From Candidatus Edwardsbacteria bacterium RifOxyA12_full_54_48 (lineage in GTDB: Bacteria; Edwardsbacteria; AC1; EtOH8), in the NCBI GenBank assembly GCA_001777915.1, contig MFFN01000004.1:894396-958395 (forward strand): DNA of 64,000 nt, given 5' to 3'. A program made the translations under genes and the position numbers. The number at the start of each line of letters is the position of its first letter. Within the stretch, counting starts at the first letter, position 1. This document shows, in pieces, positions 2,802 through 63,865 of the stretch. A model generated the notes under the pieces. The model was not told where the DNA came from and did no database searches. It worked only from the letters and a program-made list of their open reading frames with translations.

Positions 2802-2808
2802 TACCATA

Positions 2809-2993
2809 CCTTCGGGGCGGGGTGAGATTCCCCGATCGGCGGTAGGTCCGCAAAATAAGCCTGGCGGACAAAGCCCGCAAATCCATCATGGATCGACCCG
2901 GTGAAATACCGGGGCCGACGGTCCCTCCACAATACCCATAATTAACTGCTCTTTCAGTGGTTGAGCGGAGGGGAAAGTCCGGATGAAAGAAGG
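2809..2993 (+). promoter_or_regulatory. FMN riboswitch (RFN element)
   Basis: The segment carries the conserved RFN blocks in order: GGGGCGGGGTGAGATTCCCC, ATCGGCGGTA, AGCCCGC, GACCCGGTG, CCGGGGCCGACGGT and AGTCCGGATGAAAGAAGG. The outer stem pairs CCTTC at 2809-2813 with GAAGG at 2989-2993. It lies between a strong promoter and a terminator ahead of ribD, so FMN binding should cause premature termination and lower expression of the riboflavin genes. Confidence 0.96.
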
Positions 2994-3050
2994 TTTAACG
3001 GGGCCTGAATGCAAGCAGCGTTCTTGCGTAAGGGCTGTCTGTTTTGATTT

Positions 3051-52422: not shown

Positions 52423-52510
52423 GGAAGCGTGGCCGAGTGGTTGAAGGCGGCGGTCTTGAAAACCGTTGTGCTGAAAGGCACCAGGGGTTCAAATCCTCTC
52501 GCTTCCGCCA
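52423..52510 (+). tRNA. tRNA-Ser (anticodon TGA)
   Basis: An 88-base class II tRNA with encoded CCA. The acceptor stem pairs GGAAGCG with CGCTTCC, followed by discriminator G. The D-arm GCCGAGTGGTTGAAGGC is the serine type. The anticodon loop CTTGAAA carries TGA, and a long variable arm is present. The T-arm reads CAGGGGTTCAAATCCTC. It is followed by an unusual tail that repeats its own 3' end. Confidence 0.96.
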
Positions 52511-52626
52511 TTTTGCAAGAACCCCTGGAGTGGTTGAAGACCACGGGGTTCTCCGCCGGCAGGAATTATGCAAACAAAGCGACGGCGGATGCGCCGCAGG
52601 TGCAAAATCCTCTCGCTTCCGCCATT
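52511..52626 (+). repeat. tRNA-derived tail element behind tRNA-Ser(TGA)
   Basis: Four parts are visible. GAACCCCTGG (52519-52528) is an exact inverted copy of the tRNA segment CCAGGGGTTC. GGGGTTC (52545-52551) is a second direct copy of the T-arm. Then comes a ~52 bp palindromic module (TCCGCCGGCAG ... CGACGGCGGATGCGCC). Last, 22 bases (52605-52626) are identical to tRNA positions 52491-52512, including CCA and two 3' T's. The module sits exactly at TTC|AAAT of the T-loop copy. Confidence 0.8.
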
Positions 52627-52676
52627 AAGTGATAGGGCAAAGCTAAATTTGGAATTGCTTGTCCGGAAACGCTGTC

Positions 52677-52705
52677 TTGAATTTCAGACAAAAAAACGTT
52701 ATAAT
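52677..52705 (+). promoter_or_regulatory. Promoter of tRNA-Ser(GCT)
   Basis: TTGAAT (52677-52682) and TATAAT (52700-52705) with a 17-base spacer, 19 bases ahead of the tRNA. Confidence 0.75.
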
Positions 52706-52724
52706 TAGTGTGATTATTTAATGC

Positions 52725-52818
52725 GGAGAGGTGGCCGAGTGGCCGAAGGCGACGGTTTGCTAAACCGTTATACGGTCTTAAAGCTGTATCCAGGGTTCAA
52801 ATCCCTGCCTCTCCGCCA
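52725..52818 (+). tRNA. tRNA-Ser (anticodon GCT)
   Basis: A 94-base class II tRNA with encoded CCA. The acceptor stem pairs GGAGAGG with CCTCTCC, followed by G. The anticodon loop TTGCTAA carries GCT. The long variable arm (TACGGTCTTAAAGCTGTAT) is typical of serine tRNAs. The T-arm reads CAGGGTTCAAATCCCTG. Confidence 0.96.
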
Positions 52819-52936
52819 TTTTATTTGAGTGAACCTTGGATACAGCGGAAGCTGAAGGGTTCTCCGCCGGCAGTAATACATGCTGCAGAGCGACGGCGGA
52901 TGCGCCTATGGCGCAAAATCCCTGCCTCTCCGCCAT
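52819..52936 (+). repeat. tRNA-derived tail element behind tRNA-Ser(GCT)
   Basis: It has the same plan as the tail of the other tRNA-Ser. TGAACCTTGGATACAGC (52830-52846) is an inverted copy of tRNA bases 52783-52799 (16 of 17). GGGTTC is at 52857-52862. A palindromic module follows (TCCGCCGGCAG ... CGACGGCGGA, then TGCGCC/GGCGCA). The last 21 bases (52916-52936) equal tRNA positions 52799-52819. The module is shared with the first tail, whereas the flanks match this tRNA only. Confidence 0.8.
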
Positions 52937-63021: not shown

Positions 63022-63075
63022 TTGACCTTAAAACAAATCAAGCCCGACCTTTTCCCTCGAAGGTCCGGTAAATAT

Positions 63076-63253
63076 CCTGTTAAGGCCGGTCTCCTGGCTT
63101 GCCCGAATCCCAAGCGCCTTCCCGTGGTAACAGTGGCGATATGCTTGGATCTATTATTTGGGCTTACAGTTGCGGGGCAGCTCCCGATTTTCTAAAAAAT
63201 TAGAGCACGGGATTCCCGATTATCTCCCGAAAATTCGGGAGCACCTTAACAGG
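63076..63253 (-). promoter_or_regulatory. Cobalamin riboswitch
   Basis: On the - strand the P1 stem pairs CCTGTTAAGG (63253-63244) with CCTTAACAGG (63085-63076). Between them are GGTGC, GGGAATCCCGTG, the B12 box-like AGCTGCCCCGCAACTGTAA, GGGAAGG and GCCAGGAGACCGGCC, the hallmark blocks of adenosylcobalamin riboswitches. B12 binding should stop transcription of btuFCD and the genes behind. Confidence 0.96.
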
Positions 63254-63257
63254 CTGG

Positions 63258-63286
63258 ATTATATAAGAAATTTTAAATTTTGTCAA
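63258..63286 (-). promoter_or_regulatory. Consensus sigma-70 promoter of the btu operon
   Basis: On the - strand TTGACA (63286-63281) and TATAAT (63263-63258) with a 17-base spacer, a perfect match to consensus. The transcript starts right at the P1 stem of the riboswitch. Confidence 0.92.
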
Positions 63287-63613: not shown

Positions 63614-63865
63614 CTAAAGGGATTTTAATAAATGTTTTAGTGAGAACGCTCGACCGGAACCGCTTTTGAGGTATTTCTCAAAAAGGAAAGCCTTTTCTTT
63701 ATTTTTGAAGCAGCAATACCAAATTAAATCGTATGGTCCTTTATTTTTGGTATATTGTGCCAATCCCTCATTATGCTTTTTCAATCTCTCGGTCAAACTA
63801 TTTGTGCAGCCAACATAGGTTTTCAAAGTTGTTTGGCTTCGAATTATGTAAACGAAGTAATCCAT
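63614..63865 (-). CDS. GIY-YIG domain endonuclease-like protein
   Basis: The 83-residue protein (ATG 63865; a TTG two codons earlier is also open) is a stand-alone GIY-YIG domain of the UPF0213/YhbQ-like type: FVYIIRSQ, TYVGCTNSLTERLKKHN with the catalytic Arg, and FLFEKYLKSGSGR with the metal-binding Glu. Such small proteins may cut or nick DNA, but most have no known role. It lies between copies B and C of a structured repeat, on an otherwise gene-free end of the window. Confidence 0.88.
   Translation of the reverse strand: MDYFVYIIRSQTTLKTYVGCTNSLTERLKKHNEGLAQYTKNKGPYDLIWYCCFKNKEKAFLFEKYLKSGSGRAFSLKHLLKSL

Follow-up and report, generated by a model that had tools for sequence, protein, structure and literature searches.

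Elements that carry a tyrosine or serine integrase insert at a tRNA gene, restore the tRNA, and leave a partial copy behind. In the endonuclease elements of fungal mitochondria, such as those of Allomyces atp6, an endonuclease ORF is inserted in a gene and brings along a duplicate of the part that it displaces. Group I introns in bacterial tRNA genes lie inside the tRNA, are self-splicing, and in some cases carry homing endonucleases. SegB of T6 phage is a free-standing GIY-YIG homing endonuclease that cuts within tRNA genes and for which the motif RAWTSGAAC is enriched in SITE-seq (PMC13096335). The reverse complement of this motif, GTTCSAWTY, reads as T-loop sequence—a reading made here and not stated in the accessible part of that paper. 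A review of T4 phage places segB between tRNA genes and uses the term "intronless homing" (PMC2988022).

The window, i.e., the whole analysed stretch of 64,000 nucleotides from Candidatus Edwardsbacteria bacterium RifOxyA12_full_54_48 (G000), carries two tRNA-Ser genes that are each followed by a structured tail. These tails are probably ORF-less members or remnants of mobile elements that target tRNA genes, restore the tRNA, and in their full form encode a small free-standing GIY-YIG endonuclease. The genes of tRNA-Ser(UGA) (positions 52423–52510, plus strand) and tRNA-Ser(GCU) (52725–52818, plus strand) are both intact as judged by ARAGORN and Rfam. The T-loop residues C56 and R57 are located at 52490 and 52491 in the former, and C56 at 52798 in the latter. 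The tails, likewise on the plus strand, feature the same order of parts: a leader, hairpin 1, a further GGGTTC, the twin-hairpin module of 53 nt, and a copy of the 20 nt at the 3′ end of the own tRNA. In tail 1, hairpin 1 (52519–52551) has as its 5′ arm an exact 10-nt inverted copy of the T-stem and variable region of its own tRNA, GAACCCCTGG (52519–52528), and as its 3′ arm the second GGGGTTC (52545–52551), a direct copy of the 5′ side of the T-arm. The module follows at 52552–52604 with the stems 52552–52557/52584–52589 and 52590–52595/52599–52604, and is followed in turn by the displaced 3′ end of tRNA-Ser(UGA), AAATCC..CCA (52605–52624). In tail 2, the variable arm and T-stem of the own tRNA recur in inverted form, GAACCTTGGATACAGC (52831–52846), as the 5′ arm of hairpin 1 (52831–52862), with 15 of 16 nt matching; the second GGGTTC lies at 52857–52862, the module at 52863–52915 with the stems 52863–52868/52895–52900 and 52901–52906/52910–52915, and the displaced 3′ end of tRNA-Ser(GCU) at 52916–52935. 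The four tail parts named in the original prediction—an inverted T-arm copy, a second GGGTTC, a common module, and a copy of the own 3′ end—are hence real at both genes, the direct copy measuring 20 nt (22 nt in tail 1 if the next TT is included), and the module lies, as had been claimed, exactly between GGGTTC and AAATCC of the T-loop copy in both tails. Neither tail contains a nuclease ORF.

The tails are insertions. Aligned with the tRNA-Ser(GCU) locus of the congener G002, the window shows a single gap of 117 nt, which is placed at C56^R57 but can be slid within the repeat of 20–21 nt at its ends. This difference is consistent with an insertion between C56 and R57 of the T-loop, comprising the restored 3′ end of the tRNA (52799–52818) and a 97-nt element (together 52799–52915), to which nothing corresponds in G002. 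On the model of the empty site aligned for the GCU gene, the 114-nt insert of tRNA-Ser(UGA) (52491–52604), made up of the restored 3′ end (52491–52510) and a 94-nt element, may be read as an insertion at C56^R57 as well. The inverted arms fit their own tRNA better than other tRNAs, with a mean of 10.3 versus 7.2 nt (12 tails, permutation p = 5e-5). This specificity, the single gap against the empty site, and the recurrence of the module at other tRNAs argue that the tail structure is not a product of chance. The tail at tRNA-Ser(UGA) is common to G000–G003 and is doubled in tandem in G003, and the one at tRNA-Ser(GCU) is missing in G001, G002, and G006; the empty GCU sites of G001 and G002 bear out the suggestion that the structure arose twice. 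A single local duplication shared by both loci, put forward as part of the finding that would speak against this, cannot account for the tRNA-specific copies.

Two orthologous loci connect such tails with GIY-YIG ORFs. At tRNA-Ser(GCU) of G003, an extra segment with a 96-aa GIY-YIG ORF is located between tRNA and tail, and the tRNA end CTGCCTCTCCGCCA occurs at both ends of the segment; G000–G002 carry no such insert. The tRNA-Gln(UUG) locus upstream of prs occurs in three states: empty in G002 and G006, with only a tail in G003, and with a GIY-YIG element in G000 and G001. In G000, this locus features additionally a fossil GIY-YIG C-terminus farther upstream. Presence and absence at orthologous sites, by which homing endonuclease elements are recognised, are therefore seen at both Gln-UUG and Ser-GCU.

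A search for the module at other tRNA genes of this genome and its relatives, proposed along with the original prediction, located it at many of them. The covariance model of the module was searched in 10 genomes and yielded matches in G000–G003 and G005, and none in G004, G006, or three unrelated genomes; G008, outside this search, carries the module too. Across the Edwardsbacteria relatives, the tRNAs with a module-bearing tail represent a dozen amino acids: Ser (all four isoacceptors), Ala (CGC, GGC, UGC), Leu-CAA, Met, Phe, Arg (CCU, UCG), Gln (UUG, CUG), Gly (GCC, CCC, UCC), Glu, Asp, Tyr, and Ile. In nearly all matches, the module is flanked by GTTC and RAATC (or their T-loop counterparts) within a partial copy of the own tRNA. 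The tails share with MITEs that they are short, ORF-less, present in many copies, and related by the module to an ORF-bearing element; terminal inverted repeats common to the tails are lacking in the alignments, where the palindromes are internal.

Several further arrangements accompany these tails. In this genome, two tails are located away from their tRNA, namely a solo tail of the Gln type (L290) and one of the Gly type that is split off by an island (L291, L331), and a weak antisense match to the module lies near tRNA-Val (L308). At L331 (G000:C9:75500-87453), tRNA-Gly(UCC) and its tail are separated by approximately 10.8 kb that encode a large serine recombinase and contain an ArdC-like gene; in G001 (L305), the distance is only approximately 84 nt. 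Within the displaced copy of the T-stem, the Ala tails (L139, L134, L140) contain a second insert (..GAATCCCA^..^TCAGCTCC..). Another family of palindromic repeats, CCAGACTWCGCC..GGCTWCGTCTGG, starts at the CCA of tRNA genes (L034, L123, L125, L134, L142, L314); some of its copies are arranged in tandem, and some are accompanied by a GIY-YIG ORF. Phe and Arg-CCU loci (L101, L299, L029, L300) have in common a tRNA-like block whose anticodon arm is replaced (AGAGCACCCCGATRARATCGGGGGTG).

It is quite unlikely that the tails are scars of islands that tyrosine or serine recombinases integrated at the 3′ ends of tRNAs and whose cargo was subsequently lost. Integrases likewise use tRNA genes and restore the 3′ end, and the serine-recombinase island at tRNA-Gly(UCC) demonstrates that such elements are present in this very genome. 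However, this real island looks different from the tails, and no recombinase is found in the tails or among the ten large ORFs of the window between 45 and 60 kb. The same module of 53–90 nt recurs at tRNAs for a dozen amino acids, each time with the flanks of the own tRNA, and an intact tRNA downstream combined with a 5′ copy upstream of a GIY-YIG ORF is not the usual integrase pattern.

The fold of the module is conserved. In the window, the pair TGCGCC/GGTGCA against TGCGCC/GGCGCA does not represent the compensating change for which it had been taken, as it is one-sided and turns G-C into a G-U wobble; two-sided changes did emerge once more copies were compared, and the stems covary. Among 33 distinct copies, 96% of the cells of the first stem are paired, and two-sided changes occur in four of its six pairs. 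The covariation score of this stem is 0.220 compared with 0.050 in shuffles (0/500 reach 0.220) and at most 0.040 when the stem is slid. The second stem features one pair with a two-sided change (12 sequences). Among the few non-standard cells of the first stem, C-A and A-C make up the majority, and not G-U—hence, these few cells give no sign of selection specific to a plus-strand RNA.

This composition of the stem departures weighs against a functional RNA, to which only a small probability is assigned. Under that reading, the tail would be a conserved 3′ structure that pairs with the variable and T arms of the pre-tRNA in an alternative giant-tRNA fold and controls the maturation of tRNA-Ser. 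The strong fold of tRNA plus tail (z of −5.2 for GCU), the covarying stems, and the complementarity of the inverted arm to the own tRNA would suit such a role, but congeners carry empty alleles, a terminator-like hairpin with a T run separates the tRNA from the module at Gly, Met, Phe, Gln-CUG, Asp, and others, and the module occurs also in the 5′ half copy upstream of GIY-YIG ORFs. Less probable still is single-strand transposition of the hairpin module in the manner of REP/RAYT or IS200/IS605, with GTTC as target tetranucleotide: short GC-rich hairpins beside a fixed GTTC and exact module boundaries would fit, but nearly all covariance-model matches lie at tRNAs, the module being confined to tRNA copies rather than dispersed, and the duplicated tRNA parts are left unexplained.

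The preferred reading, tRNA-restoring mobile elements with a GIY-YIG endonuclease in their full form, draws on the occurrence of the module in larger elements that encode GIY-YIG nucleases of 80–95 aa. In all five Gln elements (G000, G001, G003, G005), the module lies at C56^R57 of a 5′ tRNA-Gln copy just upstream of the ORF, and an intact tRNA-Gln follows downstream. Small GIY-YIG ORFs are frequent in these genomes: in 11 genomes (G000–G009 and the more distant G010), 22 of 65 such genes have a tRNA gene at a distance of at most 500 bp, in every case on their own strand. In a protein tree of 81 columns, whose deep forks are weak, the tRNA-linked genes fall almost wholly into one large clade; 21 of its 22 members from these genomes lie near a tRNA compared with 1 of 43 other genes (p = 8e-15). 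In an alignment of 19 GIY-YIG members, Y5, Y16, G18, R26, H30, and E62 are invariant. The dN/dS of linked ORFs ranges from <0.05 to 0.24 (simple Nei-Gojobori), which indicates that they are under purifying selection.

The sole unlinked member of this clade in these genomes is located in the window itself: an ORF of 83 aa (63614–63865, minus strand) that matches PF01541, the GIY-YIG catalytic domain, with an E of 4e-16. It adjoins a piece of the 3′ end of tRNA-Ser(CGA), and its tRNA probably lies beyond the end of the contig. The UPF0213 protein BH0048 (structure 1zg2) belongs to the same domain family (E 1.5e-7). NCBIfam yields nothing above cut-off, its weak matches being to endonucleases of group I introns. 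The ORF sits within an array of AGACTACGCCC..GGCTTCGTCTGGC units. The orthologous locus of G002 (L307) features tRNA-Ser(CGA), a tail, and a cobalamin riboswitch without the GIY-YIG ORF; in the window, a cobalamin riboswitch is found at 63067–63263 (minus strand) and an FMN riboswitch at 2804–2998 (plus strand).

With seven of these proteins as query, GTDB genomes were scanned and 80 loci from more than 20 phyla retained. A tRNA gene lies within 500 bp in 70 of the 80, on the same strand in 70/70—a proportion that describes this subfamily and not GIY-YIG proteins at large, as the query was drawn from linked genes. A partial copy of the same tRNA, outscoring every other tRNA type, is found across the ORF in 50 of 69 testable loci. 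The ORFs are free-standing: they are inserted at a conserved target with no intron or intein, and the window has no Rfam match to a group I intron or other intron family. The most frequent break point is C56^R57, the exact junction in 10 of the 50 partial copies, which belong to Gln, Ser, Tyr, Asn, and Cys genes; other breaks are located near 25^26 (D-arm), in the anticodon loop, and near 44. A confinement of the break points to loops in general is not supported (28/50, p = 0.15); C56^R57 alone stands out. On the tree, the target amino acid changes 29 times versus 46 in shuffles, and the phylum 33 times versus 44 (59 rows). Targets are therefore conserved while hosts change, as expected of homing elements. 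Phage records contain no related tail and one weak GIY-YIG protein match, and viral contigs few relatives.

The small GIY-YIG nuclease is the probable driver of the insertions. It would cut an unoccupied tRNA gene at a conserved place, here C56^R57 of the T-loop, and repair would copy the element in together with the missing tRNA part, so that the gene stays whole. The displaced tRNA part remains as a partial copy, and it is in this copy that the twin-hairpin module occupies the putative cut site. The module might block re-cutting and thereby protect the displaced copy, or might be copied between tRNAs by short-homology gene conversion. ORF-less tails may afterwards persist, move in trans with the help of the nuclease, or decay. 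At first insertion into a new tRNA, a staggered cut with fill-in and a resulting 20-nt target duplication would supply the own 3′ end, although no GIY-YIG enzyme is known to leave such a stagger. The original idea, a tiny non-autonomous element that has the T-loop of tRNAs as its target and does not destroy the tRNA, gains support from the empty and filled orthologous sites, the position C56^R57 at many tRNAs, the tandem copies, and the covarying stems. On the other side, the inverted T-arm copy and hairpin 1 are not accounted for by simple homing, and the lack of a nuclease ORF within the two tails of the window and the many GIY-YIG elements that break elsewhere in the tRNA than at C56^R57 count against this best explanation. 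Tails and nuclease are tied by co-location only, since the module family is seen only in this family of genomes. A more far-reaching proposal, tentative and somewhat less than even in our estimate, is that the twin-hairpin modules form a separate class of miniature mobile DNA, which enters only T-loops of displaced tRNA copies and depends for its mobilisation in trans on GIY-YIG nucleases, these constituting a general tRNA-gene drive throughout bacteria.

Few targets in any genome are as conserved as tRNA genes. If the preferred reading is true, a compact nuclease gene that parasitises tRNA genes and mends its own damage would be a widespread, overlooked selfish element. It would account for many unassigned small GIY-YIG genes of candidate phyla, as well as for the tRNA duplications and fragments adjacent to them, and would provide a simple testable model of a bacterial gene drive with empty and filled alleles ready-made. 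The open-access full text of PMC, which is the literature covered, yielded no account of GIY-YIG genes that are inserted in tRNA genes of bacteria; as far as searched, this group of tRNA-gene parasites is undescribed.

Compared with known systems, the family features a distinct combination of properties. Integrative elements carry a recombinase, whereas here a nuclease takes the place of the integrase, the inserts measure only approximately 0.1–0.6 kb, and in some elements the intact tRNA lies downstream and a 5′ copy upstream. The Allomyces atp6 elements reside in mitochondrial protein genes, and not in bacterial tRNA genes. Unlike with group I introns, the tRNA is intact and restored at the DNA level. 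The small GIY-YIG proteins of UPF0213 belong to the same domain family, but those small GIY-YIG clades of these genomes that are not tRNA-linked do not lie near tRNA genes. With SegB, the family shares the GIY-YIG enzyme, the link to tRNA genes, and the T-loop motif GTTCSAWTY, cleavage being a prediction in the present case. SegB is phage-borne and located between tRNA genes, whereas the elements described here are chromosomal, occur in many phyla, and lie in or around the tRNA gene itself; the accessible parts of the SegB literature do not describe interrupted and restored tRNA copies, twin-hairpin modules, or ORF-less derivatives. The most fitting place for the family is among the free-standing homing endonuclease elements, as a variant that is inserted in tRNA genes, restores the tRNA, and possesses ORF-less twin-hairpin derivatives.
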